A stretch of 64,000 nt of DNA from Engraulis encrasicolus (taxonomy: Eukaryota > Chordata > Actinopteri > Clupeiformes > Engraulidae). Where the stretch lies: the NCBI RefSeq assembly GCF_034702125.1, contig NC_085868.1, positions 39,052,628 through 39,116,627 of the forward strand, read 5' to 3'. The notes under the pieces were generated by a model. That model saw nothing but the letters and a program-made list of their open reading frames with translations. It was not told the DNA's origin and did not search any database. The position numbers and the translations under genes are program-made. How positions within the stretch are numbered: position 1 is the stretch's first letter; the number at the start of each line of letters is the position of its first letter. Of this stretch, positions 1,006 to 56,400 are shown one piece after another.

Positions 1006-2924
1006 TGTTTGCTTTTTACTGTTTTACTGTTAGGCCTGTTTGTACACAGATGTGACGTCATCGGACTGCATGCGCATTGTTGGAGCAGAATCGACTATGT
1101 AGGCCTACTGCACGTTTATAAAGAAACTAGCAAGAAGTTTTTTTTTCCAAAATGAGAAAATAGATGGTCACAATTTCTTGTAACCACAAAGATCTCCTAT
1201 GCCTCTGGAACAGCCTATTCCCTCCATCTCGGAATTGCGTAATAAGTGTACGTTGTTTTTAAAAACGTGAACGCACTTGCACAGCCTCCAAGATAGTTGC
1301 TCTTAAGGGCTGCTGTTCACATTTGTCATGCTTACGTACCAATGTTTGCCCTTGGAGTGAAAGAGCAGATGAGTGCAGATGGCAAATGTCCCCATTTGTG
1401 AAAGAAACTACTCACGAATTACGTTTTATCAGTTTAATTAGGTCCAAATGTACCAGCATACCAAACAGGTGAAATATTTTCATGACTGCAACATATTTTG
1501 CTATCACATTGTTTTGATAGGCACTTAAACAGTTAATGGTTAGGCCTACTTCTTAAACTGCTGCGGGGTGTGTGCTATTATGCCATGATGTCTTCACTTC
1601 CGTCTTAAAGGGGCACAATGTAGGATGACGTCGTTTGCGCGGTGCCGTGGCATGCCTGTCTCAAAATCTAAACAGTAATGCAAAAATGCTGTTTAAATAA
1701 ACTCACAGTGTTTTTCATCACGATTGATACAAATCTGAATACGGTATGTAGAGTGATGTTTCAAATGAAAAGTGTTTCCCACGACACTCGTTCGGAGTCG
1801 GACCATGCTGTCAAAAGTTGCATGTGGGTTTTTCTGACAGCGGACCTAATCCTACCTGGAGCCCCTTTAAAACAGCAGCTTGAGGTCACTGCATGCTGTT
1901 ACGATCAATCTTAGCATGTTACAATTACTCCAGAACAGTCTTAGACGTATTTTAGAGTTACATGTAGTGTATGTGTGATCCCTGATCCTATGATTTAGCT
2001 AAGATGGTTTTGGGAAACAGTCCGTAAACTCTATGATGGTATTATGTGTGAACACAAGTGGTAGCCTATTTAGCCTTAAGTAGTACGTAAGGCATTTTGG
2101 GAAACGAGCCCCAGGTTGAAGGGTGTGTTTTGAAGATGAATATAATTGCATTCTGTTCATGTTCTGCCACAATAAAAAGCAAAGATTCAGTTCCATTTTA
2201 TACGGTAGATTATATACAAATTGCACTGTAGGCCTACAATTTCTACTTCTATGCAGGGCATATTTCAGAGGAGCACAAACAAATGCAAGATGTAGCTGCA
2301 TTAAAAGGAAATCTGATTTATTTGAATGATTTTACATAAAGAAAGTTTTGGCAAGCACATTTAGGCTGCCAGCAAAACATCACAAATGGGAATGGTTTTC
2401 AAATGGGACTTGGGTGGGTGCTGGGTCCTTGTCTTAACCATTGTGTGAGGTGAAACTCATAGTAGACCTAATGTAAAAGCTAACCAGCCATTACAGATCC
2501 CCTGATACACGCAAGAGCAGGGGTGTCGTACAGGGGGGTAAAGTGTTTCTGAATCACCAGGGCCCTGTGTACATAGGGGCCTACACAGTGTCTGAGTTAT
2601 GTAGATATATGGCTGGGGGGTTGATTGGAGCTGATTGTACATAGGGTCCCCTGTGCAGGAGAATGAAAATTAGCCCTTTATTGCTTCAAGAAAGAATTTT
2701 GTTTGGAGCACGGAGAGTCTGAAAATTCACACAAACTTATCAACACAATAGACAACACAAAAACAATGAAGATAAGACAGTGGACCAAGCACAATACATG
2801 TAAAACACGAAGGCCTTTAAAACCCAAATAGTATGTGAAAAAACTTCTGAAGTTAAGAAATTAAATAAAATATCTGTGTGAACTACTCAATAAAGCATTT
2901 GTCATAAGGAGCTAGGTTATTATA
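1006..2924. other. Intergenic DNA, no gene seen
   Basis: Non-coding AT-rich stretch with several TAGGCCTA palindromes (1100, 1541, 2229). The short open frames here overlap on opposite strands and lack splice signals or recognisable domains. Confidence 0.5.
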
Positions 2925-3466
2925 CTGTATCTGCAAGAAAACTAAACCATATTATGCTGTATAGGCAGTGGAAGAAGACCAAAAGAGGACTTCCCGCAGC
3001 TTTGAGCAACAAATACAGAAGATGTGACAAAGTTCCAGTGTAACCACAAGCATAGGCGTGCACAGAAAGGGAGGAGGTGGTGCTAAAGCACCTGCCCCTT
3101 TGCCCTGGACAAAATAAATGCCCTTTTTGAAACATCTTTTTCAAAAGTCTTTTTGTCATAATGTACTGTGGTCCTAACCTGGTTCTCACGCAGATGGATA
3201 TTCATCATGTGACAGTAATGCCCAGATATAACATAGCCTCTATAGGGCAGCTGGAGGTTCCACATGCCCCTCTCCCCCACATGCCCCCCAAAATGTCTCT
3301 GCACGTCACTGACCACAAGTAAACTGTAGAATAGATCATGTGTCAAGGTTAAGGGCATTACCCTGCAGAGTCTGGTGGGTGATTCTGTAGTTGCCTGTGA
3401 TCTGACATCGTTTCCACACTGAGACCTATTGTATTTCTCCTGAAGCCATCACTGCTGGACTTCGAT
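2925..3466 (+). promoter_or_regulatory. 5' flank/5'UTR of four-pass gene 1, split by a MITE
   Basis: The left part (2925-3050) carries the shared landmarks of this family (CTGCAAGAAAACTA, TTTGAGCAA, AAGTTCCAG, ACCACAAG). The right part (3312-3466) continues them and resembles gene 2 up to the ATG, ending in the common string GCTGGACTTCGATATGGC. The two halves are separated by a 261-bp hAT-type insertion that gene 2 lacks. The ATG context GATATGGC is shared by genes 1, 2 and 3. Confidence 0.55.
3051..3311. mobile_element. hAT-type MITE in gene 1 5' flank
   Basis: A 261-bp insertion flanked by the exact 8-bp duplication ACCACAAG (3043-3050 and 3312-3319). Its ends are inverted: CATAGGCGTGCACAGA on the left, and the right end reads CAGTGACGTGCAGAGA on the reverse strand. 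Gene 2 has a single uninterrupted ACCACAAG at the same place, which confirms the insertion. No transposase is encoded, so it is a non-autonomous copy. Confidence 0.85.
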
Positions 3467-6400
3467 ATGGCACAGGTTAACAAGTGTTTGGGGGTTATGT
3501 TTGCAACCTACAACTCAATATTTCTGGTAAGTATTTTTGTTGTTTGTTCTGGGTGAAACATGAATTGGTGACCGTGTAGCCTACCAGTGGTGTAGTCTAC
3601 GTAGAACGCGGGTATACAGAGTATACCCACTTCTAAATTTCAGGGATTTCAGTATACTTGAAATTGATTGATCCATTATTTTGAATAGCACAAATATATA
3701 CAGTACACCCACTTCAAAAAAATGCTCAAATATATAGTATACCCACCATAAAAAAGTAGACTACACCACTGTAGCCTACCATTTATTTTTGCATAATAAA
3801 GGACTCACTATTAAGTAAAGGTTTCATAAAGGACTCAATATTAAATAAATGATGTTGGCCTACATCAATGGTCAGTTAATAGTGTGAATGTTGTGCGTTC
3901 ATCAATCAGGTATTACCACAGCGGGTTAAAATCTTGTCCTGTATTAGACCCTAATTATATCCCCGAAACGCGGAGCGTCGGGGATGTAATGGTTTTGCGT
4001 GCGCCGCCGCCGCGTCCGCCGCCGCGTCCGCCGCGTCCGCCGCGTCCGCCGCCGCGTAAGGTCTTTCGTGTTAACGCGATAACTTTTGAACGGATGTTTG
4101 GATTTGTCCCAGATTTTTTGGGTGAATGCTCTAGGACAGGTTCATGAACTGATTCGAGTTTGGAGGTCAACACTTTCAAGATGGCTGAATTCAAGATGGC
4201 CGAATTTTTGTTTGGTCCATAACTTCTGACCGGGTGGAAGGATTTGTCCCAGATTTGGTGTGTGAATGCTCTAGGGTAGGTTCATGAACTGCTTCGAGTT
4301 GGGAGGTCAACACTTTCAAGATGGCTGAATTCAAGATGGCCGAATTTTTGTTTGGTCCATAACTTCTGACCTGGTGGATGGATTTGTCCCAGATTTGGTG
4401 TGTGAATGCTCTAGGGTAGGTTCATGAACTGATTCGAGTTTGGAGGTCAACACTTTCAAGATGGCTGAATTCAAGATGGCCGAATTATTATTTGGCCCAT
4501 AACTACTAACCGGTTGGATGGATTTGTCCCAGATTTTGTGTGTGAATGCTCTAGGGTAGGTTCATGAACTGATTCGAGATTGGAAGACAACACTTTCAAA
4601 ATGGCGGAATTTTCATTTGGCCCATAACTTCTGACTGGGTGGATTGATTTGCCCGGTAACACCTTATTTTAATGGTTCACCATTTCAGTGAATCTACCAT
4701 ATTAGGTACAGTGTAATAACCAATGTAACAATATTTAATACCATTTAATACTAGTGTAATACCAGTGTAACAATATGCAATATCAGGTACAGTGTAGTAA
4801 CGAGTGTAACAGTATGCAATACCATGTAATATAGTGTAATACCAGTGTAACAATATGCAATGCCATGTAATACCACTTACGCACAAACACATGATGTAAG
4901 TAAAAAAATTACATTGTATTAAATATTGTTACACTGGTTATTACACTGTACCTAATGTGGTATATCCACTGAACCATTAAAACAGTATTACCATTTGCCC
5001 CATTTTTTGCTTCATTTTCACAATAGTCGTTTGGTTTTAAGCCTATGCGCGTCATGTCACGTCTGTATATACGTTTACGAAATGGTGGACGGGAGTGGTA
5101 GGAATGATGGGGGATTGGAAGCGTCGCGTTTCGGGGATATACCTTAAGCAGTCGAAGGCGACTGCACAGGCAGTCTAGTTAACAATGTTCATTTCAGTAT
5201 ATGGTATTCTTCACTTTTTATGATATGTGTATGGTATTTTCTATCTGTTTGTTTACTTAGGCCTACTGATTATATCCCCGAAACGCGGAGCGTCGGGGAT
5301 GTAATGGTTTTGCGTGCGCCGCCGCCGCGTCCGCGTCCACGTCCGCTGCCGCGTCCGCCGCCGCCGCCGCCGCGTAAGGTCTTCCGTGTTAACGCGATAA
5401 CTCTTGAACGGATGTTTGGATTTGTCCCAGATTTTTTGGGTGAATGCTCTAGGGTGGGTTCATGAACTGATTCGAGTTTGGAGGTCAACACTTTCAAGAT
5501 GGCTGAATTCAAGATGGCCGAATTTTTGTTTGGTCCATAACTTCTGACCTGGTGGATGGATTTGTCCCAGATTTGGTGTGTGAATGCTCTAGGGTAGGTT
5601 CATGAACTGCTTCGAGTTGGGAGGTCAACACTTTCAAGATGGCTGAATTCAAGATGGCCGAATTTTTGTTTGGTCCATAACTTCTGACCTGGTGGATGGA
5701 TTTGTCCCAGATTTGGTGTGTGAATGCTCTAGGGTAGGTTCATGAACTGCTTCGAGTTGGGAGGTCAACACTTTCAAGATGGCTGAATTCAAGATGGCCG
5801 AATTTTTGTTTGGTACATAACTTCTGACCTGGTGGATGGATTTGTCCCAGATTTGGTGTGTGAATGCTCTAGGGTAGGTTCATGAACTGATTCGAGTTTG
5901 GAGGTCAACACTTTCAAGATGGCTGAATTCAAGATGGCCGAATTATTGTTTGGCCCATAACTACTGACCGGTTGGATGGATTTGTCCCAGATTTTGTGTG
6001 TGAATGCTCTAGGGTAGGTTCATGAACTGATTCGAGTTTGGAAGACAACACTTTCAAAATGGCGGAATTTTCATTTGGCCCATAACTTCTGACTGGGTGG
6101 ATTGATTTGCCCGGTAACACCTTATTTTAATGGTTCACCATTTCAGTGAATCTACCATATTAGGTACAGTGTAATAACCAATGTAACAATATTTAATACC
6201 ATTTAATACTAGTGTAATACCAGTGTAACAATATGCAATATCAGGTACAGTGTAGTAACGAGTGTAACAGTATGCAATACCATGTAATATAGTGTAATAC
6301 CAGTGTAACAATATGCAATACCATGTAATACCACTTACGCACAAACACATGATGTAAGTAAAAAAATGACATTGTATTAAATATTGTTACACTGGTTATT

Positions 6401-7416
6401 ACACTGTACCTAATGTGGTATATCCACTGAACCATTAAAACAGTATTACCATTTACCCCATTTTTTGCTTCATTTTCACAATAGTCGTTTGGTTTTAAGC
6501 CTATGCGCGTCATGTCACGTCTGTAGGCCTATATACGTTTACGAAATGGTGGACGGGAGTGGTAGGAATGATGGGGGACTGGAAGCGTCGCGTTTCGGGG
6601 ATATACCTTAAGCAGTCGAAGGCGACTGCACAGGCAGTCTAGTTTATTTATTAATAGTACTTTATTAATAGTATGGATTGTTAATCTCCTTATAGAGTCT
6701 TGGATTCATGGCACTTCTTGGAGCTCTGAAAGGTGCATCTGTAAGTGATTGTCCATGTTTAACCTAATAGCCTTGTACACTTTTAACTGTTTTTCTCCCT
6801 CTATTTCCTCTTTACCACACACATTACTGTTTTCTATTTTCTGTTGCTACATTTGTTACTCTGATATTTTCCAAAAACAATGATAGGGATTTTGCCTGTG
6901 TTGTTTAGGGACTCACCTGGAATGTGTTTGTTTTCATTGGAGCAACAATTGGTATCAGCTCTCTTGGAATCTTTGGTGTCCGCAAACTTCAGAAATGGGC
7001 TCTCATGCTGGTAAAGAAACTATGATGTGTTTATTATACTTTTAAAATGCCATCCCAAATAATAAGTCACAACATGGCTAAGATTATATCTTTTTCTATG
7101 TGCACACTTGCACTCAGATCTGTGGTTGGTTTCCTATCAGCTAACAATCCAATAATCTGTTAAAATCATCTTTTTTGTGTCTTTTTCAGTATTCAGTTCT
7201 TGTGTCTCTTGGGATGGTGTACTGCTTGTACATGGGTGTAGTGCTGGTGGTGAACAAATCTGAGGTGAATTACAACACAATAGGCCACACAATAACATTA
7301 CCATTTTGATACAACAATATCAATATCATATAATGATAATAATAATAATGACAAAGATGATGATGATGATCATGATGATGATGATAATAATAATAATCAT
7401 AATAATAATCATGATC

Positions 7417-7450
<34 letters not shown>

Positions 7451-24480: not shown

Positions 24481-24568
24481 TCTCAGTCTCACAAGCTAAT
24501 CACGACATATTCATAGAGAGTAGATTAGAGCGTTTAGGTATGCTTTATTTCCTGTGGTGTCTCGCTAC

Positions 24569-25793
24569 ATGTTACTGTTATGTTCATCAGAAGAGTCTAT
24601 GAAAATAACAGTTGAGTTGGGACAGAATTTGACTCTGAATTGTTCTGTTGCCGAAAAGGAGATTTACTGGTTCATACAACGTGGGTTTGAGCGTCCAGTC
24701 TTAATACTGCAGGTTTTCACATACGATTCAGCACAATACAACAATGACTATAAGGAATTTGAAAACAAATACTCACACACATTAGGAAGACTGTTCATTC
24801 ACAACATAACCAAGAATGAACTTGGATTGTACTACTGCGTCAAGATAAAAGACCCTCCCTTATTCAGCGGTTTTACAGCAGTCATCGAAAAAGGTAAGTG
24901 TTGATTTTCCACAAAAAAAAACTTTAAGTGAAACTTGTAGAAGTTCAAACTAAGTGGTCAATGATGTATTGAACATTTAGGTCTCATTCATATCTGACTG
25001 GATTCCATTCAGCCTCCAAGAATAAATGCTTAACATGACAGACACTTATGATGCAAGAATAAAGTAGACCAGTCCATAATCGTAAATTAAATAATGAAAT
25101 GTCATAATGAAATGCCATATTTGACAACTGTAATGGATTCAACAATAGTCTTTTATTTAGGCCTACCAGCGAATGCATCTGATTGGATGGTCGATAAATA
25201 TGAGGACTGTTTAAAATCTTGGATGGCTCCAACCTTTGTTGTTTCCTCTTTTATGAACATTATTTCCATCGTTCCACTTTCAGGTACGTATGTAACATTT
25301 CTTGCATAAATCATCATCACACTAAATTAGTGAAATGTCAAACAAAGACCTGTGTTCTGCTCTTTTTTTGTGCAAAATGAAAACAAGCAGTGATTATCGT
25401 CAGACATTGTATGAAGAAGAAAAGAAACACAAATGTAGAGGAATCTAATCAACCTAAAGCTGTTGTGGTAAATACCTTTACTTCTTACACCTAGACGGAT
25501 CTATTAAATATCTTATGATGGATCAAGTGAATAGTGTCCACATTACCTGTTTTGTTACTTTTGCTATGAAGACATTTGATACAATACAATTTCAATTTGC
25601 CTGCATAAGACGGCATTGATTGATACACTATTACATTTTCTTGCAATGTTCTTATTTTTCACAGTATTCAGATGAGATTTTGCCAACACCAATTGGACCT
25701 ACTTGGAATGAATACACAGTCATCTCTTATGGTGCTGTTAAGCTGCCGGAGCCAGGCCGAGAGGGAAATTTGAGATGTGTGAATACAATGTGA
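24569..25793 (+). CDS. Single-V-domain Ig receptor with ITIM-type tail (Ig gene A)
   Basis: Exons: 24569-24893, 25170-25283, 25391-25467, 25665-25793 (phases 1, 1, 0). From ATG 24569 the protein is 214 residues. V domain: LNCS with Cys25, YWF with Trp34, LGLYYC with Cys90, and sequons at NLT, NCS and NIT. Exon 2 gives a hinge with one cysteine (YEDCLKSW) and the membrane segment (APTFVVSSFMNIISIVPLS), then basic RHCMKKKR. The tail has NEYTVI at 187-192 and ISYGAV at 192-197; the latter fits the ITIM consensus. The leader is odd: the ATG matching genes B and C (24540) is out of frame after about 10 codons, leaving a short leader from 24569. An alternative acceptor at 25160 would add three residues. 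It resembles inhibitory NITR/CD300-type receptors in layout, but the family is not assigned. Confidence 0.7.
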
Positions 25794-27912: not shown

Positions 27913-28163
27913 GAGTTGTTTTCAGAGTTAGGCCTACATGACGATTAAAGCTCGTAATAATGAAGCAAACACACATGGTGGTCATTTCCTGGTAGTTGTC
28001 TACTTTTTTCTGAGTTTCCTGTTCTTAACGACCACCCTCTTGTTTGTCTTCAAAACCCTGTTTGTCTTCAGAACAATTAAAAAACTTGTCTGGGACAGTC
28101 CACCTCATTGCGTGATTTAATTTCTTTCACCAATTAGATCATGGCAGTGAAATAAGTCGAAGG

Positions 28164-29360
28164 ATGTTTTGCTTTTTCTTGTGGTTTCTCAGTGTGTTTT
28201 TACCCCTAAATTCAACTAAGATAACTGCTCAATTAGGGCAGAATGTGACTATAAACTGTTCTCTTAACACTACAAAAGAGATTTACTGGTTCGTACAACG
28301 CAGGTGTGAGCATCCAGTTTTCATACTACAGTCTAATGTATATGGTTTTATTACGAACTACAGCAAGCAACAAAAGGAATTTAGAACCAAATACTCTCAA
28401 GAGCATGTAACTAGTCTGTTCATACGCAACGTAACCAGGAATGAACTTGGATTGTACTACTGTGCCATCCCTTTTAAGGACACTAACTATATTCAGCAGT
28501 TCGATTGCAGTCATTGAAAAAGGTAAGTCATGACTTATATTTGTCAAAATAATATTGAGCAAACTAGTAAGGAGTAAATTAAAGGCAAATTGTCTGCAGA
28601 CACGCTGATAAAACATGTTTATTATCTTAAATGGAATTAAATTATTCACTTGGAAAGATAAAAAATCTATAGGCCTATACGAATGGTCTAAACAGCTCTA
28701 ACATTCCCTGAATTATTTGATTACATCTGATTGTTTGACTATATGTCTAAAGGGGTGACTTAAAGTCACAAATAGTTAATGAATGAACAAATAATGGACA
28801 AATATTCCTTTTGTAATAGAAGATGTGCTGATTCCAAACAATTGCACGAGGATTAATGAAGTGGATAATCTGCAATCATGGTTATACCACTTAATTCTAT
28901 CGTGTGTGTTGAATGGTGTGTTCTTCATTTCATTCTTAGGTAAGTAAGGTTCCATAACCATGAATATAATACATTACATTATAACATCACATAACACTCT
29001 TATTCAAAGCAACTTACAAAATAGAATGACATTGCCCAAACTAAACATTTAATGTCCTTTCTCTGCAACATGAAAACAACAACTTCAGTGGCTATTGTTG
29101 GACATAGCAGAAGAACAAGCGCAAGTGTGGCGGAGCATCATCAGATCGACTTGATGGTAATTGAGCTACTATATGCAAATGGATATAACTGAACTGTAAA
29201 AGATGCAAAAGGCAGTGAATGACTTTCTGTTATGTTATGCATCTTCTTCTAGAGCAGTGAAGTCACCTTGTCTGAGTCTGACCCTCCAACAGCGGCTATG
29301 ATCAGAGACAGCACCAGCACCACCACCCATGTGGTGCTCAGATGCCGCACTGAAGCCTGA
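28164..29360 (+). pseudogene. Single-V-domain Ig receptor with V-exon frameshift (Ig gene B)
   Basis: Exons: 28164-28522, 28820-28939, 29089-29156, 29253-29360. The leader (MFCFFLWFLSVFLPL) and V domain (INCS, YWFVQRR, LGLYYC) are intact. Just before the donor the reading frame is shifted by one base relative to genes A and C: the conserved VIE-K end lies in another frame, and the ORF stops at 28517, five bases before GTAAGT. The downstream exons remain open in the expected phases and encode a hinge (NNCTRINEVD), a membrane segment (WLYHLILSCVLNGVFFISFL) and a tail with no tyrosine (ends HVVLRCRTEA). It is either a recent pseudogene, a gene making a truncated secreted V domain of 117 residues, or a sequencing error. 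Confidence 0.65.
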
Positions 29361-30688
29361 TAGACATGATGTAATGGAGTGCATGTTTTTGTCATTTTCT
29401 CAACAACTTAAGAAGAAGACATTGTTGTACTTAACGACGACAAGTCGTTTTCTCAGGCGACATAGAAATAAGACAAAAGACAATTTTGAGGTGTGGTTCT
29501 AGTGACATCTAGGCCTACTTGTTTCCCCATTTCACATGGACTATCATTAGGATTATGCAAGGTCAGATAGCATAAGCTTCCTTTTCCTAAATGAACATTG
29601 ACACTAACTGCATATATTTCTGATCTGATATCTGATTGGCTTCTTAATGTAAATGCAGTCTGTGGATGGTACATGTTGCAGAGGAAATAAAACAACACAA
29701 ATGAATGCCAATTGAAATGCAGCCTACTTAGTCTGAACAGAGTTACTGATCTTAAATGACATACACATACATAGTAGTCATAGAACAATTTTACACCTAC
29801 AGTCAAAAGAGTTAACTTGTATACAATTAATGACTTTTTCACTCCACTCTCAAGCGGTTGTTCTAATTGTGTCTCTGAGTGGAAGAGACACATCTTCAAG
29901 CTCCAAAAAGAAGTCCATTTGTCTACACCGTCAGTATTTTGACTGTAGACATAAGGCTGAACATTTTTGGAAACTCAGTAGAGATAGGCTGCCACAAAAA
30001 ATGTCATGGCAACCATTAAGTTACATTTAGCATATAGAGCACAGTCAGCGGACAGCCATTTTTGGGTGTTTTCAAAGATATTCTTATAAGTTTATCTCAT
30101 GGTTAACCTGAGATAGTTTTCAGTTGACACAATGACCAGTGAGTGTTTTTGAATATGTCAATTTGGCTGCCGTCACATTCCCTTCACATTGACTATCCAT
30201 CAACAGCCACAAATTCTTGCTACAGAAAAAGTACACCCCACTGTGTAATTCTCCCAGTCTACTTCAGACAATGTATGTTAGGTAGTAAGCAAAGTAAAGC
30301 AAAGCAAAGTAAAGAAAAGTAACACACTGTTTTTTTCATTTGCTGACATGATGCTTGGGGATCCGTGCAAACTGCCCGATTGTACTCGCTGACCATGCAT
30401 GCAAGGCCTTGCTCACCCTACTGCTGAAGACCAGACATGTAACAGGAAACCACAGCCACATCCTGAAAATAGGCTACAACATCTTATCTACTCATGATTT
30501 GCTTTGCCTTGTGTGTGGTGTTGCATGGCCATACTTCTTTCTGAGCTTCCTGCTTTACACCTACCCCTTTATTGTGCTTAAATTTAGATCAGACTTGTCA
30601 TTCAAAAACTGTTGTAAGGGACAGTATGATTATTGCGGACACAATTACAAATCAGACTTAAAAAGGTGGTAAGTCATAAAGTAGGAGA
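29361..30688. other. Spacer between Ig genes B and C
   Basis: About 30150-30670 resembles the region before gene B (GGCTGCTGTCACATTCCCT versus GGCTGCCGTCACATTCCCT; TTTCTGAGTTTCCTG versus TTTCTGAGCTTCCTG) and is likely the gene C promoter and 5'UTR. The 148-codon reverse-strand frame at 29453-29899 has no recognisable domain. Confidence 0.45.
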
Positions 30689-31799
30689 ATGCCCTGTTTA
30701 ATGTGGTTTCTCATTGTGCTATTACCCTTATGTGTGTCAGAAAACTCAACAAAGATAGAAGTTGAGTTTGGACAGACTGTGACTTTAAACTGCTCTGTAG
30801 CTGAAGATGAAATTTACTGGTTCATACAGCGGAGGTCTGAGCATCCAGTCCATATACTGCGCCTATTGACTTATGGTTCATTTGAATACAACAAGCAACA
30901 CCAGGAATTTAGACACAAATACAGCCAAACATCAGGTAGGCTTGTCATACAAAATATAACCAGGAACGAACTTGGATTGTACTTCTGTGTGAAACAAAGC
31001 ATCCCTCCTTTATTCAGCAAAGTTACCACAGTCATCGAAAAAGGTAGGCCTGAGTGTCAACTAAACTGGCTAACCATGATGATTTTTGTATTTACTGACA
31101 ACTTCGTCCAAGTCAGATAACTTACTGTTTCTGAGACCTTACCACATGCAAGCTGAAAATAGTGCATGTAACATAACGTTTAGGAAATTAACATACTTAA
31201 TTAATTTTGTAGCAAATGCTTCTGTTCCACGTGGTCCATGTGATTGCATGGTGCCTAATGAAGAGGATTATTTAAAATCATGGATGCTCCCATCATTTGC
31301 TGGTTGTTGTTTTCTCAACATTGTTTTCATCTTCCTACTTTTGGGTGTGTATATTTTTCTTCATAAACCAAACATTGAAACTGATTGATGACATCTGAGA
31401 CATATAAATTCAACTCAAGTTATGTTTCTTTTTTGTTGTCACGAATCATTTAAACATCAATTAGTGGCTATCGGATACTGTATCAAGAAGAACAGAAACA
31501 AGGAACCCAACAATACTGTGGTAAATATACAACATATTTACATAGGCCTATGATATACTGTACATGGACCTATTTAAAATCATGCCGCTTATATCCTCCT
31601 ACATACTGTATCTTGACCTTGATATATTCTTTTATATATTCTTGTAGGCCTATATAGGCTATTCTTATCATGTGTTCTCATTCTTGTATATTCTTATTTT
31701 TCACAGTACTCCAATGAAAGTGAACCAACTGGGACTGAATACACAGTCGTCTCCTATGCAGTTAAGCTGAGTGAACCAGTCCGACAGACATCAGAGTGA
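30689..31799 (+). CDS. Single-V-domain Ig receptor with ITSM-type tail (Ig gene C)
   Basis: Exons: 30689-31043, 31213-31344, 31465-31520, 31707-31799 (phases 1, 1, 0). The product is 211 residues, the best preserved of the cluster. Signal peptide about 1-18 (MPCLMWFLIVLLPLCVSE). V domain has Cys35, Trp44 and Cys100 in LGLYFC, with sequons at 19, 34 and 89. The hinge (PRGPCDCMVPNEEDYLKSW) has two cysteines that could dimerise. Membrane segment is roughly 143-166, followed by KKNRNK. The tail carries TEYTVV at 191-196, fitting the ITSM consensus TxYxx(V/I); the neighbouring VSYAVK lacks the +3 hydrophobic residue of an ITIM. The V-exon donor reads GTAGGC because of a 6-bp insertion relative to GTAAGT in A and B, so splicing may be weakened. 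Inferred inhibitory or switch receptor; family not assigned. Confidence 0.75.
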
Positions 31800-36016: not shown

Positions 36017-36233
36017 GGTCTTTCTGAAAACCTAAGACAGTGTCCTTTGTCCTTCCAAGTGTGTCAGCCTAATTAGTCACACCCAGTGATTGGATACTCT
36101 TTATTAGTCACACCCAGTCATTGGATATTCTGTAGAGATCACCAAAAGAGTATCCAATCACTGGGCGCGACTTATTAGGCTGATACACTTGGAAGGACAC
36201 TGTCCTAGGTTTCGAGAAAGACCCTATGTCTGT
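36017..36233. mobile_element. Palindromic MITE family, copy P1
   Basis: Arms of about 95 bases run inward from GGTCTTTCTGAAAACCTA and from the inverse TAGGTTTCGAGAAAGACC. They share CTTCCAAGTGTGTCAGCC and CCCAGTGATTGGATACTC with their inverse. A foldback structure with a small centre containing one duplicated arm segment. Confidence 0.85.
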
Positions 36234-36432
36234 ATGCAGTAGAAGCCTGTATTATATCACACATACAAGAAAAGAGCTAAGCTCATTCGCACGATGGACA
36301 GGACATATCCACAGTGCTAGCAATTAATGGTTACTTCATCATAGTCAATATGTCAACATTTCTACTTCTCTCTTTGCCAATATATCATCACAGTAGCTGC
36401 TAGTTTAAAAGATCCTCACATTATGACACAGT

Positions 36433-36617
36433 GGGCATTTCTCAAAGCTCTAGTTCATGCACTTCCAAGTGTATCGGCCTAATTAGTCACACCCAGTGAT
36501 TGGATACTCTTTATTAGTCACGCCCAGTGATTGGACACTCCGCAGTGTTCACCAAAGAGTATCCAATCACTGGGCGTGACTAATTAGGCTGATACACTAG
36601 AGTTTTGAGAAATGCCC
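36433..36617. mobile_element. Palindromic MITE family, copy P2
   Basis: Begins GGGCATTTCTCAAAGCTCTA and ends CTAGAGTTTTGAGAAATGCC(C). It shares the CAGTGATTGGATACTCTTT core with P1 and P3. AGT flanks both sides, a possible 3-bp duplication. Confidence 0.85.
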
Positions 36618-37620: not shown

Positions 37621-37694
37621 AAACATTCACTTGTAATTTACTTTATTCAGACATTTTATGGTCCCTTGGAACACTTTTACTTCGTGATGTGTCA

Positions 37695-38474
37695 CAGTGC
37701 TCAGTGGAGATAACAGTTTAGTTTGGACAAAATTTGACTCTGAACAGTTTTATTTCTGAGGAAGAGGTTTACTGGTTCTATCAGCATCCATAGTAGGCCT
37801 ATTTATTACGTTCCTTTTATATACTACCCTTCTAACGAGCAACGCCAGGAATTTATGAACAAGTACTCTCTACAAACATCTAGTTGTCTCTTCATGCATA
37901 ATGTAACAATGAACTTGGAGTGTACTACTGTATCAAACCAGGTGGGCCTCCCATTTTCAGCTGCACAGTCATTGAAAGAGGTAAGTGTTGAATTTTCACA
38001 ATAATATGTTACATTTGATCAAATGAAACACAAACTGGCAAAAGAAGCTATCACAAAAACACATTTGTAAATTGTGTCTTTATTGTTCTGACGTGAAATA
38101 CTAAAGACTCAATAACTTAAGATGAGATTACCACACAATGCAGGTTGAAATAAGTATCAAATTAATTGAATTATAATATTTTTGTATAATTATAATTTAT
38201 AATAATTTATTATAACTCATGACCAAGTGTTTCTGTCTCTTGAGACACACTGCTAAAGAGGACCTCAATTGTGGAAGAGCCTCATCATCATCCTGACTTC
38301 TTCATGGTAAATACACACAGAGTGTAGAAAGGTAAGAAGTATACATTGTCAAAAGCAAAGGATTTACTGTGTTACCATGTCATGTAGATCTCTGGTGTAA
38401 CTCCACCTGACTCTCTAGCAACTCTGGTCAGAGACAGCAGCAGCACCTACATGGCGTTCAGATGCCAGAGCTGA
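37695..38474 (+). pseudogene. Ig V-domain receptor pseudogene (Ig gene D)
   Basis: The V exon remnant (about 37695-37980) aligns with genes A-C: GAGATAACAGTT then TAG where others have GAG, TTTGGACAAAATTTGACTCT, a first-cysteine change (AACAGT for AACTGT), GTTTACTGGTTC, then a TAG soon after. A later frameshift precedes TGTACTACTGT, and the donor GTAAGTG at 37981 survives. A third exon remnant ends at 38306 (GTGGAAGAGCCTCATCATC, donor GTAAAT). The last exon at 38388-38474 parallels gene B (CTGGTCAGAGACAGCAGC; FRCQS then stop). The membrane exon was not found. Closest to gene B by its 3' exons. Clearly non-functional as a receptor. Confidence 0.85.
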
Positions 38475-42933: not shown

Positions 42934-43639
42934 AATTGTGAAAAAGGCAATATGGTACAGCCATAAAACTGTCCAAAAGAGCTTAAATGTAACAAATGAT
43001 CAAACCTTAATCAAAAGAAACAGGACATTTTTTTTTTTTACTAACACTATTTCTAAATTTTGAAATTACTGTATGTCTGTCAAGTCAACTGTGACTAGCT
43101 ATGCTTTATGTTTTTTAATTTTGAATAAATAGAATTAAATCATTTGGAATTAAAATTCATGTTCAAACATTGCACATTTAAAGTCGACCACAAATGTGCG
43201 CGGGACGATGAGATCGCACCAGTTTGAACTACTAGCAAATCACGTGTGAGGTGTGGGGGAGGAGCTGAGGTGGGGTGCAGAACTTATGTAGGGGTGTGAA
43301 ACAAGGCGCCTGCACACGTGAGTGAGCTGTTGGCCAACCAAATCAGCGGTGCGTCCCCTCTGAGGCGGCAGACCTTTGCAGACGGGCATCAATAGCCTTA
43401 TTCGAGACACCGCAATGGCTACACGCGCATGTAGGCAGCAATGCATTCTGTACGAAATGTTGCATGATGGTTAGATTTCCTGTCCAACATACCAAATTTG
43501 CGCCGTTGTTGCGCCGACGAGGTGACATGTCACATGGTGCCAAACTATCATGGGATGAATGCAACTGCAGACGGACCTTGCAACCCCAAGCAGATTTTAA
43601 GGACAAGGCTCGCGAAGGAAGCAATCTGTAATCTAGGCT

Positions 43640-44227
43640 AGAGGTTCTCAACCTTTTTTGAACAAGCACCCCCTTTGCCTCATCACAAGCCTCCCAATGC
43701 CCCTTTCACCACATCATGAGACTGACAACGCCCTCCTTAATAAAGGGACACTGTGTGAGATTTTTAGTTGTTTATTTCCAGAATTCATGCTGCCCATTCA
43801 CTAAAGTTACCTTTTTCATGAATACTTACCACCAGCATCAAATTCTAAGCTTTCATTATGACTGGAAAAATTGCTCTTTTCATACATGAAAAGGGGGATC
43901 TTCTCCATGGTCCGCCATTTTGAATTTCCAAAAATAGACATTTTTAGCTGCAAAAATGACTGTACTTGGACCATACTAGAAAATATTTGTTTAATACTTA
44001 GTAAACTTTCATGTAAAGATACAATTTGGCAATAGGCAGCCCAATTTCAATAAGCATCATAGTTGCAGTACCTTTTTTGACCATTTCCTGCACAGAGTCC
44101 CTTTAAAGGGACTACCCCCCAATGGCAACTAAGCTCCGCCTCCTCTTAGCTGTATCCTTTGCAACACCCCCCTAGAGCTCCCCAACCCCCCCTGGGGGGC
44201 TGTACCGCCCCCATTGAGAAACACTGG
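43640..44227. mobile_element. hAT-type element with a nested MITE
   Basis: Begins AGAGGTTCTCAACCTTTTTT and ends CATTGAGAAACACTGG; exact 8-bp duplication TCTAGGCT at 43632-43639 and 44228-44235. The MITE copy M2 (43741-44106) is inserted inside it. Confidence 0.8.
43741..44106 (+). mobile_element. 380-bp MITE family, copy M2
   Basis: Full-length copy: TAAAGGGACACTGTGTGAGA at the left and TTTCCTGCACAGAGTCCCTT then TAA at the right, an inverted pair. It is the least disturbed copy in the window and is useful as a reference for GGCCTA insertions in the others. Confidence 0.85.
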
Positions 44228-45660: not shown

Positions 45661-46149
45661 CCTCAATGGTTTAAGCCGAGGAGCCCAACTGAAATATTCA
45701 ATTTTCATATCAATCAAGTCAATAATACATGTACTTATCAATTGTCAGTGACAGCTTGGATCATCTACCTCTATAAGGCCATTACAAAATAAAATCAGAT
45801 ATGTATATCTCAAGTCCTAAGTGTACTATGGAGTGATAGGTGCATTTATGGTTAGGAAATTATGAATAATCAATATGCAATACACCATACATACAGTATA
45901 TTGACTAATACTTTATGGTTTAAAAGAGCAAAATGGTAACATCTCTGTTTTCTGTTCTACCTAACCACTTTTTGTTGATTGCTCGTTATTTTTTATTTGT
46001 GGATGTGGTCCTTTGTTTAAAACAAGTCTGCCTACCTTCCCGCTCTCACACACTGAAAAAGTATTTCGAAAACTTTAAACAACAGCATGTGGAACTCCTA
46101 TTAGCTTTGGAGGGATACAGCTGCCAAAGTAGCCTAAAAGTCATCAAGA
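45661..46149. other. Intergenic DNA, no gene seen
   Basis: No repeat border, exon or conserved motif recognised. The open frame at 45933-46178 has no domain and runs into the pentanucleotide array. Confidence 0.4.
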
Positions 46150-46545
46150 CTATACTGTATTCTACTGTAGTGGTGTAGTGTACTCTGCTATACTGTACTG
46201 CACTGTACTGTACTGTACTGTACTGTACTATACTATACTATACTATACTATACTGTACTCTACTGCACCTTACTGTATGCTACTGTACTGTACTGTACTT
46301 TACTATACTGCACCGTACTGTATGCTGCTGTACTGTACTGTACTGCACTGTACGGTACTTTACTATACTTTACTATACTGCACCATACTTTATGCTACTG
46401 TACTATACTGTACTGCACCGTACTGTATGCTGCAGAACTGTAGGCTACTTTACTGCACTGTATGGTACTGTACTGTATTGTACTGTACTGCAGCACTGTA
46501 CTTTACTATACTGCACCGTACTGTATGCTACTTTACTTTATTATA
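46150..46545. repeat. (TACTG)n pentanucleotide array, part 1
   Basis: Degenerate TACTG repeats (TACTGTACTGTACTG, TACTATACTATAC, TACTGCACTG). Higher-order units around GCACCGTACTGTATGCTAC recur. The array resumes at 47045, after an intervening non-repetitive insert. Confidence 0.9.
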
Positions 46546-47044: not shown

Positions 47045-47170
47045 CTTACGTATTGTACTGTACTGTTCTGTATTGCACTATACTGTACTGTACTGTACTT
47101 TATTATACTGCACCGTTCTGTATGCTACTGTACTGTACTGTACTCTACTGCACTGTGCTGTACTGTACAA
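47045..47170. repeat. (TACTG)n pentanucleotide array, part 2
   Basis: Same degenerate TACTG units as 46150-46545, including GCACCGTTCTGTATGCTAC, which shows that the two parts were once continuous. Confidence 0.85.
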
Positions 47171-49510: not shown

Positions 49511-49559
49511 CTACATATGTCCTCATGTTTACTAGTGAGACCAAAGTGCAGTAAGTTTT

Positions 49560-49722
49560 GCAGCTAAAAATGTCTGGAGACGATCCACTATGTCATGAAT
49601 GAAAAGTGCAATTTTCCCATTCATAATGCATACTTAGAATGTAATGATTGGTGTGGTAGGCCTATTGATGAAAATGGTAACATTTGTGAATGGGTTGTTT
49701 AAATAGTATAGTGCACCTTTAA
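49560..49722 (-). mobile_element. 380-bp MITE family, copy M6 (partial, diverged)
   Basis: On the reverse strand it reads CTTAAAGGTGCAC ... TGTTACC ... CATTATGAATGGGAAAATTG ... CAGACATTTTTAGCTGC, following the order of copy M2 with deletions. It contains TAGGCCTA at 49657, near the AATACTTACC site of the consensus. Confidence 0.6.
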
Positions 49723-49727
49723 GTGCT

Positions 49728-50075
49728 ATCCCATTCCTAACCCATAGGTTAAATAGGATGTCGGTCCACCTTTTGCAGCTATTACAGCTTCAACTCTTCT
49801 AGGAAGGCTGATCAGAAGGTTGAGGAGACTATGTTTATATGCATTTTTGACCATTCTTCCAAGCTTGTTGGTAAGATCACACACTGATGTTGGTCCAGAA
49901 GGCCTGGCTCTCAGTCTCTGCGCTAATTCATTCCAAAGTCATGTTGGAGGAGGAAGAAGCCCGCTCCAAATTGTTCCCACTGGTTGGGGAGCATGGATTT
50001 GTCCAATATAATTTGGTATCCTGCAGCATTCAATGTTCTTTCCATTAACAAAGAGTTCAAAAAAAGAGTTAAAAA
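49728..50075 (-). pseudogene. Tc1-type transposase fragment
   Basis: The reverse strand encodes pieces of a Tc1/mariner transposase: ERTLNAAGYQIILDKSML and PNQWEQFGAG at 49957-50045. Further upstream on + are the reverse complements of conserved motifs (TCCACCTTTTGCAGCTATTA; GACCATTCTTCCAAG). Frames are broken and the element ends are missing. A dead copy next to two MITE copies. Confidence 0.7.
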
Positions 50076-50077
50076 AT

Positions 50078-50272
50078 TCAAAATAGCGGACCAGAAGATC
50101 CCCTCTTTCATGTAAAATGTTTTGCCTATGTAAAATGCAATTTCGCCAGTCATATTGAAGAATTAGAATTTAATGGTGGTAAGTAGGCCTATTTGTTTAA
50201 AAAGTAACTTGTGAATGAACAGCATGAATTCTGAAAATGAGCTTATAAAATATTACACAGTGCCCTTTAAAA
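50078..50272 (-). mobile_element. 380-bp MITE family, copy M5 (partial)
   Basis: On the reverse strand: TTAAAGGGCACTGTGTAATA, CAGAATTCATGCTGTTCATT, AAGTTACTTTTT, CTTACCACCATTAAATTC, GGGGATCTTCTGGTCCGC. A TAGGCCTA at 50184-50191 is an exact 6-bp insertion relative to the consensus ATACTTACCACC. Confidence 0.75.
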
Positions 50273-51626
50273 AGGAGAAAATATCTCATCTCATGATTTA
50301 CGCTATTCATTAAATAGCCTAAAACCATTTATTAATTAACTTATCACCGTCATAGTAAGTGGTATGGTGGTATTTAATAATAAATAAATAATGAGTCTCA
50401 GCTCACGAGTGCGGATTTTCTCCTCTTTAGGCATGCAGACCAGGCCACTGCATCTGACGCTATGTGACTTGGACGCAGCTGCTCAGACATGGAAACCCAT
50501 TCAATGAAGCTCTCTGTGTAGCCTAGGCCTACAGCACTTGGGATAATCTGATAATTCTCTCCACAAGTGACGGAGCAGAAAGTTGGTGAGCTCTTTAACC
50601 TGAGCCCAGTCTCGCGAAAAAATCAACTGTAGGCTATGCCTCGTGGTGCCGTTTTTCGTGGTTGAGCAATGCGCGCTGTCGTCGAGAGTGGGCGAGAGAG
50701 AGCGAGTGAGAGAGAGAGACCACCCGAGCAGCGTACATTCCGGGAGGGGAGCGCTGTCGTTATGTCAGCTTCATGCCATCTCTCCCTTCCTCCAACATTG
50801 TCCCTAACCTTAACTCTAAACCTAACCCTAAATCGCTTGTTTGAAATTTTTGATTACCGTCGTTTCCAGTTAGCCTTCACTCATGCTTGATTGTTGACGT
50901 CCGTCTGCATTATTCTTCCCCCCAGAACCAAACTACCCCTATTGTCAATTCCCCCTTTCATCACCCAACCACGAGAAACGAGACTATTCGTAACGGCACC
51001 ACGAGGCTTAGGCCTACAGTTGATTTTTTCTGTTTTTCTCGTAAGGAATTCACAAATGGCCCGAGATACAAGGCACTACTCAGGATCCAGCATCTGTTGA
51101 CCCCTCTCCATTAGTTTACGTGGCCACTTTGTGTCTGAGTTGCAGTTGTTACCAACAGTTGAATGTGGAATATTTCGGAGCGAGGAAATTTCATGATTGG
51201 ATTTGCTCCTAAGGTGGTGTCACTGTTAGGCTATAGTATATGTCAGTGGGTGGCGTCCTATGAAAGTTCCACTGTGCTGGAATTCATGAGCTCGTGAGTG
51301 GCCCAGAAACTTTTTTTTCAAAAACAGTAGCATAGGCCTACTAGGTGCTTGATTTTTTAATAGGCTAGGCCTACATCTAGCCAAGTGAGTAGGACACCTG
51401 ATTATCATTTGTATGGGTAAGCAACCACTTAGTAGTTTGTAGGCTAACCAGCTTAAGCTGGAAGGGTGTAGGACTAGACTGTTTCCTCCCAATGATCTGA
51501 TTCTGCATTCATTCGGATATCCATGGGGATCTGGGGAGTTTTTAAGAGACTAGCCTACTCAGTTTTGCATCATAATGTCATTAATTGAAATATTGTTCAA
51601 AATGTTTCTTTCATTATCAGCACTGT
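50273..51626. other. Intergenic DNA, no gene seen
   Basis: Includes a GAGAGAGCGAG-rich stretch near 50690-50720 and telomere-like CCTAACCCTAAA near 50820. Open frames at 50669-51114 show no domain. It may contain the missing 5' exon of the V-set gene at 53468, but none was identified. Confidence 0.4.
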
Positions 51627-52017
51627 TTAAAGGGACACTGTGTGAGATTTTTAGTTGTTTATTTCCAGAATTCATGCTACCCATTCACTAATGTTACCTT
51701 TATCATGAATACCACCAGCATCAAATTTTAAGTATTCATTATGACTGGAAAAATTGCACTTTTCATACATGAAAAAAGGGGATCTTCTCCATGGTCCCCC
51801 ATTTTGAATGTCCAGAAATAGCCATTTTTAGCTGCAAAAATGACTGTACTTGGGCCATAGGCCTAGGCTACTATGAAATATTAGTTTATTAGGCCTAGGC
51901 CTACTTAGTAAACTTCCATGAAAAGATAAAATTTGGCAATAGGCGCCCCAGTTTCAATGAGCAGCATGGTTACAGTACCTTTTTTGACCATTTCCTGCAC
52001 AGTCAGTGTCCCTTTAA
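51627..52017 (+). mobile_element. 380-bp MITE family, copy M3 with two GGCCTA insertion clusters
   Basis: Full-length copy: TTAAAGGGACACTGTGTGAG at the left, AGTGTCCCTTTAA at the right. Relative to M1 and M2 it carries extra TAGGCCTAGGCTA at 51858 and TAGGCCTAGGCCTA at 51890, each exactly at a TA of the consensus (CATACTAG and TTACTTAG). Confidence 0.85.
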
Positions 52018-53204: not shown

Positions 53205-53441
53205 TAAAGGGGATCTTCTCCATTGTCCACCATTTTGAATGTCCAGAAATAGACATATTTAGCTGCAAATCTTACTGTACTTTGGTCATAGTAGTAAATA
53301 TTAGCTTGTTAGTTATTAGGCTATAGGCCTACATGAAAAGATCAATTGAAATTTGGCAATAGTCAGTAGGCCTAGGCCTACACTTTCAATGAGCAGCATT
53401 GCAATACCTACTCTGGCCACCATCCTACACTGCACCTTTAA
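53205..53441 (+). mobile_element. 380-bp MITE family, copy M4 (partial)
   Basis: Starts within the family at GGGGATCTTCTCCATTGTCC and ends TACACTGCACCTTTAA. Compared with M1 and M2 it has additional TAGGCCTA at 53324 and TAGGCCTAGGCCTA at 53367. It lies just upstream of the leader exon at 53468. Confidence 0.75.
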
Positions 53442-53467
53442 CTGAAAAGATATATATCTTTTTACAG

Positions 53468-56400
53468 ACTCCATTTCAGCTTGCTGGTTTTCCTGCTTCT
53501 CTTCATTGAGCCAGGTGAGTGTGCAAGGTTCAACAAGCTACAGACAGTAGGCCTATAAGTACAGCTGTCTGTGTGTGGGGAGGGTGGCAGCAGCACGTGT
53601 GAGGTACGGTTATGAACATGTGGGTTGGTTAAGAAAAAGCAGTTGGTGGGTATTCCAAATATGTGGTTCAGCAACTTATCCCAGATAATATTTCAGCACA
53701 ACTGCAGTTCATAATACAGATGGCCTGTGAGCGTGCCAGTTGTTCCCCTGGTCACGGTCATATTTGTGAGCTTTCTTAAGTCCTTAAAACTTAATCAGAG
53801 CTGTCACTTTTTGCGCAAATGTTGCACCAAAAAGTTAGATGATTTCACCAAGCTCATTCATTCAATCAACCCCCCCCCCCAAAAAAAAAAAACAAAAAAA
53901 CAAGTCATTGATGGAAATAAAATAAATAAATAAATGGTACAATGTAATGATTTTGATTCTTCAACTGGGGTACATATACACTATGTTACCAAAAGTGTTC
54001 ACTAACTTGCCTTGACTCACATATGATCTTCAATGCCATCCCATTCCTAACCCATATGGTTCATTTTTTCCATATGAGGTACCCATAGGACCCATATGAT
54101 ATTGGTCCACCTTTTTGCTGCTATTACAGCTTCAACTCATCTGGGAAGGCTGTCAACTAAGTCCACGAGGTGACCATTCTTCTAAAAGCGCATTGGTGAG
54201 GTCACACAAAGTCAAGTTCATCCATGCCATACTCTCACCATTTCCCAAAGTCAAGTGTTCTAGCCTTGGTAGTGTGTGAAACGCCTAGTGATTGGATACA
54301 CAGTGCACAGATTGGTGCACAGTCATGTTGGAAGAGGAAGGGGTGTGTTCCAAACTGTTACCACAACGTTGGGAGCATGGAATTATCCAAAATGTTTTGA
54401 TATCCTGGATGATGACACAGTATGGTATGGATGACCTTGACTGGCCTGTACAGAGTCCTAACCTGAACCATAAAACAGCTTTGGGATGAATTAGAGAGGA
54501 GACTGAGAGCCAGGCTTTCTCGAATGGCAGTGAAGATCATATGTGAGTCAAGGCAAGACAGCGAATACTTTTGGTAATCTTGTCTCTTTCTCAATGCCCA
54601 GTGTTCTGGCCTTGAGGACGTGGAACGCCCATTGATTGGATACTTGGTGGAGTTCACCAAAGAGTATCCAATCACTGGCCGGTTCACATCCTAGCAAGGC
54701 TAGAACACTGGGCATTGAGATAGGGCCATAGTGTATGTCAAGCCTGAGCCCAATTGCACTACTTTTTACATGACATTGAATTTCACCTTTAGGCATTCTG
54801 ACCAACCTGTCTTATCAGTTTTTTTTCCTATTCCTCCTGAATAGTCTGAAATCACTGAAAAATAAATTATATGCATACCCACCCGCTGGTGTGACCCTCT
54901 GTCCAATAGTACACAATATGCATTTGAAAGACATCCATTATAATAGAGCTGTTATAGAACCTACTAGGGCTGTAACGATACACTGAACTCACGATTCGGT
55001 TTGTATCACGATTCATGAACTACGGTTTGATATTCCACCACGATTTTACATTTGTCAACATGATAAACATTATGAATAAAAACTATAGTCTATAGGTAGA
55101 ATCGGTTATAAGAGGCTACTAATAATTTTGAAAAGATTCTATATAGTAATGATGATGCTTCGAGGCACTATCACTTCACATCATGTGGTTGTTTTCTGGG
55201 CTGATGGGTATCAAAACGTTAAAAGGGCGTATCACTATACTGCCTCCTTGTATCAAGATACAGTATGGTGACTCTGTGTATCACGATTTCTCGGTTCGAT
55301 ACAATATCGTTACAGCCCTAGAACCTACTGTTTGCTGGGTTGTACACACTTGTTTTGACAATCAGTGTCCTTGGAAGTAAGACACACAGTCCCTTAATTT
55401 AGAGCAGGCAACACTACTGTGGTACCCCATAGTACAAGGTAGCCCCCCAGGAGCTTCTGAAGTGCCCACAAAGGATGTTTAAAAAAATAGTGACTATGTC
55501 AAGGTTTTAATCTCAGTTCATTTTTTCTTGATTTAAATGCGAAATTATTTCATCAGTAACATCATCATTAACAAAAAGCATATACAACAGTACCATATCA
55601 TAATGGGATTTGAAATGGATAAAATTGAATTGTAGGCCTATTGGTACTGGTTAAGGGCAAATAATTATTCTTGTTTTTAATCTACTATTTTCACATACAA
55701 ATGCAGAAAATTCAAGATAAAATTGCAAAATAAAACTACACTGAATCTGCCTCACATATCGGCATCCATGTAAGCGCCCATTAAATGTGCAGTTTAACAG
55801 CTAGGACGATCAAGTTTTTTGTGCATTTCAATGGCCAAATACACTTAAAACATCGGTAGAAGGCTGGGACTGGATGCTGATTCTCGTAGCTAGAGTGAGA
55901 GCACATGCAGACTGTGCAGTGTGAAAATGACAACTAAACAGCCCATAAACTTCTCGCACTCGCGCTGCCCCCGTCTCTGGGCATGCAAACGTGCAGTGTG
56001 AAACAAGTATTTTTTTATGATGGTATTTTCTTACACATTCCGTGACGCTGATTTATCTGACCTGCTGTCTGTTCCCCCTCTCAGTTTCAACCATTCACCC
56101 ACATCCCTATTCCCATTTCCACTTGCCAGTCTGCTGTATGGGTATTAGCTAGCTGTTAACTCACTTTGGGTTTATGAGGACTTGTAGGAAATGGTTGGTT
56201 GAGTTATCGCAGTGGCTGGCTCGACAAATTGCACTCTGGACTTTGCACTTGTGTCTTTGTCAACATTTACGTTGTGGGTGAAGTGATGCTGGTCCAAAGT
56301 GGACAATGTTGTCTGAACATAACTGGTATCGTACTATATATTGTACTACATTGTACTGCAGTATATCTTTCACCCATGAGATTGTTTAAAATGCCTTACT

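Follow-up and report, generated by a model that had tools for sequence, protein, structure and literature searches.

Palindromic octamers in the Engraulis encrasicolus genome as probable excision footprints of a TA-inserting transposon

In a 64-kb window of the Engraulis encrasicolus genome (C12:39052628-39116627 of a 1,433,290,184-base assembly; 39% G+C), the palindromic octamer TAGGCCTA is present in 49 exact copies, where a dinucleotide model predicts 0.58 and base composition 0.81. We propose that the octamer and its two shorter relatives, TAGGCTA and TAGCCTA, are probably excision footprints of a Tc1/mariner-like cut-and-paste transposon that inserts at TA and has the ends TA-GGC...GCC-TA. 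The octamers had been noticed in an earlier sequence-only reading of the same DNA, whose estimate of about 49 copies against about one expected was accurate, as were all eleven of its example positions. The runner-up among 8-base palindromes in the window has 15 copies, and among strings of the form TA-N4-TA, GGCC was enriched 84-fold and the second, TTAT, 14-fold. The first octamer lies at 1100 and the last starts at 55633, and none is found between 40972 and 46841 or beyond 55640, in agreement with the octamer-free zones already described (roughly 41-46.8 kb and after 55.7 kb). These stretches still hold TAGGCTA or TAGCCTA, at 43634, 44230, 45232, 46130 and 46441 in the first and at 60455 and 60630 in the second. 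Counted in sixteen 4-kb bins, the octamers show a variance/mean of 2.4 and so are clumped; the sequence around them looks unrelated between sites. Their flanks favour a purine (R) ahead of the TA pair and a pyrimidine (Y) behind it (R-TA...TA-Y in 71 of 98), and the shorter forms lean likewise, as expected if one enzyme picks the targets. The 24 one-substitution neighbours of the octamer occur 35 times on both strands, where 16 are expected; under a single burst this excess would correspond, as a rough figure, to about 5% per-site divergence of the octamers. A search against Rfam at gathering scores gave no match.

The over-representation extends to the whole genome. A genome-wide count, which the sequence-only reading had proposed to set against shuffled sequence, was made against the reversed letters and gave 195,551 octamers versus 9,066 in 1.43 Gb, a ratio that may be flattered by the CpG in the reversed-letter control. 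In a sample of 200 kb from 20 loci (41,010 bases masked), 41 octamers were found where 1.4 are expected (29-fold), and 19 of the 41 fall in two loci. Octamer density in the window is 5.6 times the genome mean. The figure of 195,551 is no event count, because arrays and amplified repeats contribute to it. One minisatellite (C1:293461-293993, near 293.5 kb) carries an octamer every 27-29 bases. When viral and prokaryote contigs were searched for clustered octamers, the 11 loci from a viral search each held 3-9 octamers, which for the most part lay close together within a single short segment; strings of the miniature inverted-repeat transposable element (MITE) described below and of a 140-bp satellite had 0 matches in viral contigs.

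The forms with three nucleotides (nt) between the two TAs are enriched as well. In the window, TAGGCTA occurs 21 times (2.76 expected) and TAGCCTA 22 times (2.74 expected), about 8-fold each. Once tandem arrays were masked, the most enriched 3-nt pairs of the window were GGC/GCC (7.9-fold), CAG/CTG (4.9-fold) and CCG/CGG (3.1-fold). Pooled over the window and two MITE sites, with the sample left out, GGC and GCC were found in a ratio of 35:39. The ratio of 3-nt to 4-nt forms was 43:49 in the window, 25:17 and 6:12 at the first and second MITE sites, and 69:41 in the sample. Octamers that had lost an inner A or T were not in excess (TGGCCTA, 2 versus 3.4 expected; TAGGCCA, 3 versus 3.2). Because such variants are not in excess and the 24 substitution neighbours are raised only from 16 to 35, the 3-nt forms are unlikely to have arisen by decay of the octamer.

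For each site we asked whether a paralogue spanning it matched the empty (TA) or the filled version. Window octamers with a spanning paralogue gave 11 empty and 1 filled (37 had no paralogue), whereas the other TA-N4-TA strings of the window, put through the same test, gave 6 empty and 69 filled, with 17 ties. A rerun with wider flanks gave 10 empty and 2 filled for the octamers and 10 empty, 35 filled and 7 ties for the controls with arrays masked (Fisher p 6e-5). This window test represents about seven or eight events, because octamers nested together cannot be counted as independent. Among the 3-nt forms of the window, GGC gave 3 empty and 1 filled, with 17 lacking a paralogue, and all 22 GCC sites lacked a spanning paralogue. 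In the cleanest single case, which the sequence-only reading had described exactly, a clean gap of 6 bp at TA separates the octamer at 6524 from the copy at about 5066 in an alignment of 1,108 columns and 97.4% identity, and the joined (empty) version of the site matches at 82 of 82 bases. Tandem units of 140 bp, inside which the 15-base TTCAAGATGGCCGAA recurs, lie within the 4.0-6.6 kb repeat pair, a putative Helentron in the sequence-only reading, at 4079-4611 (3.8 copies) and 5417-6069 (4.7 copies). TACTG pentanucleotide arrays were seen at 46149-46537 and 47050-47168, one of them holding a TAGGCTA insertion (Table 1). Where a 3-nt and a 4-nt form occupy the same TA in two inverted arms (50616-51030), either two hits or a single hit later altered by one base may have occurred.

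Copies of the MITE gave a larger set of comparisons. In a six-copy alignment from the window, the insertions previously reported in copies M3 and M5 are both visible, and the suggestion that a newly made TA can be struck again is borne out by double footprints in M3, one of which is the double GGCC at the second MITE TA tallied below. A genome search with copy M2 returned 3,249 first-look candidates, of which the best 40 were scored. At site one, the TA in TCATGAATA/CTTACCACC, no insert is present in 7,619 copies (3,814 on one strand, 3,805 on the other), and 104 have 3-13 extra bases. Among the 100 of these that were tallied, GGCC (17), GCC (15) and GGC (10) make up 42, each followed by a new TA; the minor classes CCG (3), CCGG (3), CGG (1), AGCT (2), CAG (1) and CTG (1) are likewise followed by a new TA, tandem duplications account for 12 (CTTA) and 7 (CTA), and single near-variants also occur. 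At site two, TTTATTA/CTTAGTAAAC, all 55 filled copies were tallied: 11 have GGCC, 1 has a double GGCC (copy M3 of the window), 4 have GGC and 2 have GCC, the rest being AGCT (2), CGG (2), CCA (1), GGCCC (1) and a mixed group of 31 in which local duplications are frequent. Comparing MITE copies, a check put forward in the sequence-only reading, revealed inserts of 6 bp (GGCC plus TA) at the TA of both sites; polarity, which comes from the count of empty copies, was established at site one only. Relative to the empty site, the inserts of the window and of the two MITE TAs lie between two TAs, and the footprint classes (GGCC, GGC, GCC, CCGG, CCG, CGG, AGCT, CAG and CTG) fit a length of 2-4 bases.

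Twenty of the 100 filled site-one copies were fetched (10 GGCC, 3 GCC, 3 GGC, 3 CCGG and 1 CCG). None lies closer than 4.6% to the copy nearest to it, and that nearest copy has a different insert or none in 12 of the 20. Because the filled copies are diverged and so often neighbour a copy with another insert or none, the same MITE TA has most likely been hit many times and in differing ways. The claim that TA becomes TAGGCCTA by a 6-bp insertion is right for most testable cases in the window and at the two fixed MITE TAs; it does not extend to some copies, which were inherited or arose by substitution.

The spectrum can be accounted for by a cut-and-paste cycle, whose overhang chemistry we infer along with the existence of the element and its ends. 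The element would enter at TA, duplicating it, and excision would leave 3-nt 3′ overhangs, GGC on each side. If the overhangs paired by their self-complementary last two bases (GC/GC), no mismatch would arise and filling of the one-base gaps would give TA-GGCC-TA. If they paired over three bases, the central G:G mismatch could be repaired in favour of either strand, to TA-GGC-TA or to TA-GCC-TA. With every footprint would come a fresh TA, open to another hit. As a general rule, a 4-nt palindrome would be formed only if the last two overhang bases are self-complementary, and otherwise 3-nt forms alone; CCG should yield CCGG, CCG and CGG, AGC should yield AGCT, and CAG should yield CAG and CTG only. 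Set against this rule, the inserts seen were GGCC (for GGC), CCGG (for CCG) and AGCT (for AGC), with CAG in 3-nt form only, in two cases; the CAG/CTG and CCGG inserts were seen at site one only. On this reading the CCG and AGC inserts would come from two more TA elements, one ending in CCG and the other in AGC. A 3-nt overhang is favoured over a 2-nt one because it makes TAGGCTA and TAGCCTA sister products of one event type and agrees with the footprint already known, TAC(A/T)GTA. The sequence-only reading, which had suggested the footprint of a TA-inserting transposon with 2-nt overhangs, was thus right in kind, and the overhang is likelier to be 3 nt (GGC). Its alternative of slippage or templated repair is not favoured. 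Its statement that no mechanism had been described was too strong, as Tc1/mariner footprints are described in PMC3432063, PMC7913693 and PMC2642840.

The same kind of footprint might instead arise from 4-nt overhangs, with GGCC ends pairing perfectly by self-complementarity and the 3-nt forms produced by trimming. No other single class is as large as TAGGCCTA in the window or at either MITE site (not so in the sample, with 41 versus 43 TAGGCTA), and Passer footprints are reported to reach 4 bp (PMC9976928). However, the 3-nt forms are too common for trimming, CAG/CTG has no 4-nt partner, and mariner 5′ breaks are described as lying two or three nt inside the element (PMC2642840). We consider this variant unlikely.

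In behaviour, the proposed TA-GGC element would be Tc1/mariner-like. The Sleeping Beauty footprint, given as TAC(A/T)GTA in PMC3432063, likewise consists of two TAs around a few end-derived bases, in two complementary 3-nt forms, and CAG/CTG is also enriched in the window. Unlike in Sleeping Beauty/Tc1, the dominant class here is GGC/GCC together with the palindrome GGCC, which a CAG overhang cannot make. ZB, a Tc1/mariner element, leaves footprints of 0-3 bp, and a 'range of 2-4 bp' is stated for Tc1/mariner, both in PMC7913693; for Passer, a pogo element, footprints of 0-4 bp are given in PMC9976928. Both resemble the present case in their TA target and short footprints, whereas their footprints come from cell assays and the very numerous scars described here come from genome sequence. 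ISL2EU ends mostly start with GG, with AT duplicated within A/AT/T, and PIF/Harbinger uses TWA (PMC4482050). The ISL2EU/PHIS group shares GG at the ends and was rejected as the source: in place of AT within AATT, the scars sit at TA, with a preceding R and a following Y preferred. The cyanobacterial HIP1 (highly iterated palindrome) is another short, strongly over-represented palindrome (PMC4390886). HIP1 has been discussed together with DNA methyltransferases; the copies here differ in being derived insertions with 3-nt sister forms.

Tc1-like transposases are abundant in the genome. A DDE_3 search gave 3,775 candidates, of which the best 150 were scored. Among 18 DDE_3 loci, 7 have TA-CAG inverted ends (L067, L071, L073-L076 and L078), 2 have other ends (L069 and L077) and 9 have no readable ends, one of these (L063) showing a weak 14/20 end match only. 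Locus L076 carries the Pfam domains HTH_SB, HTH_Tnp_Tc3_2 and DDE_3. L073-L076 are Tc1-like, about 1.62 kb long and 97.5-99.6% identical, with open frames of 348-368 amino acids (aa), and this near-identity, together with the open frames, indicates recent activity. Because the Sleeping Beauty footprint is published and TA-CAG elements are resident, the CAG/CTG scars serve as an internal positive control.

Several observations weigh against a GGC-ended transposon as the general source of the octamers. First, the element itself was not found. The sequence-only reading had suggested looking for TA-flanked elements with GG...CC termini, and a search of the window for TA-GG...CC-TA inverted repeats returned no TA-GGC-ended element; none of the TA-bounded inverted repeats in the window, the sample and four small loci has GGC ends, none of the nine DDE_3 loci with readable ends, among the 18, starts with GGC, and none was obvious behind the MITE anchor in the first 100 of 312 places. 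A PF01359 search returned nothing, and its controls were also silent, so it is uninformative. Second, in the unmasked 200-kb sample the 3-nt ranking is GCC 5.2-fold, CTC 4.1-fold, ATA 3.0-fold and CAG 2.9-fold, with CCG at 2.1-fold, and GGC:GCC is 43:26. Third, away from the MITE sites CCGG and AGCT are not clearly enriched: the window has neither, and the sample has 2 CCGG (0.66 expected) and 4 AGCT (2.7 expected), so that few cases stand behind the CCG and AGC classes. Fourth, site one also holds ill-fitting inserts (GTC 2, GGCCC 2, TTG, CCTG, GGTC and others), and three of the fetched copies give poor alignments (L043, L047 and L060, at 34-40% distance) and say little on independence. Finally, when the window was pooled with the sample and four loci chosen for having a double octamer (L017-L020), 13 octamers were empty and 8 filled, with 86 of 107 uninformative (107 kept of 109); GGC split into 6 empty, 6 filled and 1 tie and GCC into 3, 2 and 1 tie, and the controls of this pooled set gave 31 empty, 157 filled and 11 ties. 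Several of the filled partners are one or two substitutions off the octamer (TAGACCTA, TACACCTA and TAGGCCCA), the octamers at 31543 and 31645 align without a gap in divergent immunoglobulin (Ig)-like paralogues, and that at 37794 scores as filled. Some copies are inherited within repeats; 27 of the first 100 places behind the MITE anchor belong to one repeat with TAGGCTATAGGCTA.

The source element may be pogo-like, lost, very rare or outside the stretches examined. Two candidates were rejected. The inverted pair at 36176-36481, which reads TA-GGC...GCC-TA, sits inside a longer inverted repeat; its arm has 1,339 genome places, many of the 100 listed forming pairs about 123 bases apart, and because GGC faces outward in these listed close pairs the pair was rejected as a TA-GGC-bounded element. 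Two hairpin repeats span 36048-36598, with arms like CTTCCAAGTGTATC(A/G)GCC-TA...TA-GGC(C/T)GATACACTTGGAAG. A TA-bounded 1.8-kb structure in L027 looks like an inverted duplication and has no frame over 110 aa.

That no source element appeared in the searches made would suit a TA-directed process without excision of a full element, in which a domesticated transposase or another nuclease cuts TA and repair adds GGCC or GGC. Such a process is improbable: distinct classes (GGC, CCG and AGC, and at site one CAG) occur at the same TAs, as several element families predict, and the CAG class has a resident source. Ordinary inheritance, with the octamer carried in amplified repeats or formed by substitution and tandem slippage, appears more doubtful still as a general explanation. 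Amplified copies do exist, in the repeat at 27 of the first 100 places and in the 27-29-bp array on C1, as do shared copies single bases apart and the CTTA and CTA duplications at site one (12 and 7 of the 100 listed). Some of the filled cases are old shared copies or were changed by substitution, because their partners differ by one or two substitutions; some are segments common to L029 and L031, with the partner one substitution away. The dispersed repeat at those 27 of the first 100 listed places (for example C1:2370263-2370293) carries a 3-nt form and reads TCATGAATAGGCTATAGGCTAAATTATTTCC, with a one-unit-shorter form at 6 places, and is apparently a scar amplified along with its host repeat. 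Against inheritance as the rule are the unrelated flanks in the window, the 7,619 empty MITE copies, the star-like relationship of the well-aligning filled copies, and the fact that GGCC is no local duplication of the flanks. Programmed elimination, in which TA-bounded germline elements were removed from the body cells used for assembly and left a scar, would account for the absent source element and has a TA-bounded counterpart in ciliates (compare PMC3408717 and PMC3464196), but is very improbable, since only 42 of about 7,700 copies have a footprint at the MITE TA and decayed relatives of the octamer exist, as past events would leave. Microsatellite slippage was rejected, as GGCC, GGC and GCC arise at CATGAATA/CTTACC and TTTATTA/CTTAG, whose flanks do not contain them. 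A telomerase origin was dropped with TAGGGCCTA and TAGGCCCTA absent from the window; the GGCCC inserts, of which site one has two and site two has one, speak against that rejection.

Table 1. Positions of the octamers, 3-nt forms and insertion sites in the window
Feature	Position	Strand	Remark
TAGGCCTA (49 copies), first part	1100, 1541, 2229, 5258, 6524, 11226, 12596, 13813, 14060, 14198, 14209, 16876, 20115, 20647, 22755, 25158, 25935	palindrome, no strand	exact count
TAGGCCTA, middle part	26091, 26440, 27929, 28670, 29510, 31543, 31645, 32043, 37028, 37794, 38857, 39563, 40015, 40972	no strand	exact count
TAGGCCTA, last part	46841, 48395, 49657, 50184, 50524, 51009, 51333, 51366, 51858, 51890, 51896, 52933, 53093, 53324, 53367, 53373, 53548, 55633	no strand	exact count
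TAGGCTA (n=21)	10676, 12048, 12540, 14843, 18503, 20775, 30470, 31655, 33509, 43634, 44230, 46441, 48575, 50630, 51227, 51361, 51440, 51864, 52328, 53317, 60630	+	3-nt form
TAGCCTA (n=22)	2062, 3577, 3772, 10691, 16594, 21016, 21087, 21109, 21398, 32298, 33861, 34543, 36006, 45232, 46130, 47560, 49507, 50315, 50519, 51551, 52474, 60455	+	3-nt form
Cleanest single insertion	6524..6531	.	repeat copy 5537-6644 has TAGGCCTA, copy 4079-5180 has TA
TAGGCTA in TACTG tandem array	46441..46447	+	5-bp insertion versus neighbouring units; empty in first test, tie with wider flanks
Inverted arms 50616-50653 / 50992-51030	50616..51030	.	TAGGCTA (50630) and TAGGCCTA (51009) at same TA; element-like
Nested TAGCCTAGGCCTA	50519..50531	+	window sequence
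Nested TAGGCTAGGCCTA	51361..51373	+	window sequence
MITE M2	43741-44107	+	empty at tested TAs; 40 best genome matches, itself included, 96-100% identical
MITE M3 double hit TAGGCCTAGGCTA	51858..51870	+	one 4-nt and one 3-nt footprint; M1 and M2 have single TA
MITE M3 double hit TAGGCCTAGGCCTA	51890..51903	.	M1 and M2 have single TA; six-copy alignment
MITE M4 insertion (reverse strand)	49657..49664	.	same TA as M5
MITE M5 insertion (reverse strand)	50184..50191	.	TA used for genome-wide test
MITE M6	53317..53380	+	TAGGCTA 53317, TAGGCCTA 53324, double TAGGCCTAGGCCTA 53367-53380; looser alignment

Open frames or homologous stretches that resemble Ig V-type exons, named by eye, were seen in the window at 24524-24904, 28116-28517, 30680-31120, about 37659-38004 and 58266-58703; four are paralogous, and the copy near 37.7 kb contains an octamer.

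These probable footprints stand out by their palindromic 4-nt form and their very great number; among the titles and abstracts listed in the literature searches, none linked TAGGCCTA to transposon footprints in fish. Transposon insertions are routinely counted and excisions are not, their scars being tiny. We suggest tentatively, and at somewhat less than even confidence, that one hidden or lost GGC-ended TA transposon scarred the genome at up to 10^5 places, that the overhang rule allows the ends of extinct transposons to be read from scars alone, and that CCG and AGC mark two more elements. The scar reading accounts for the octamer without function or selection. If the octamers are scars, they offer a way to estimate how many excisions took place and when, small insertions may to a notable extent stem from excision, and for an element not yet seen the ends (TA-GGC...GCC-TA) become predictable and could be searched for in relatives.

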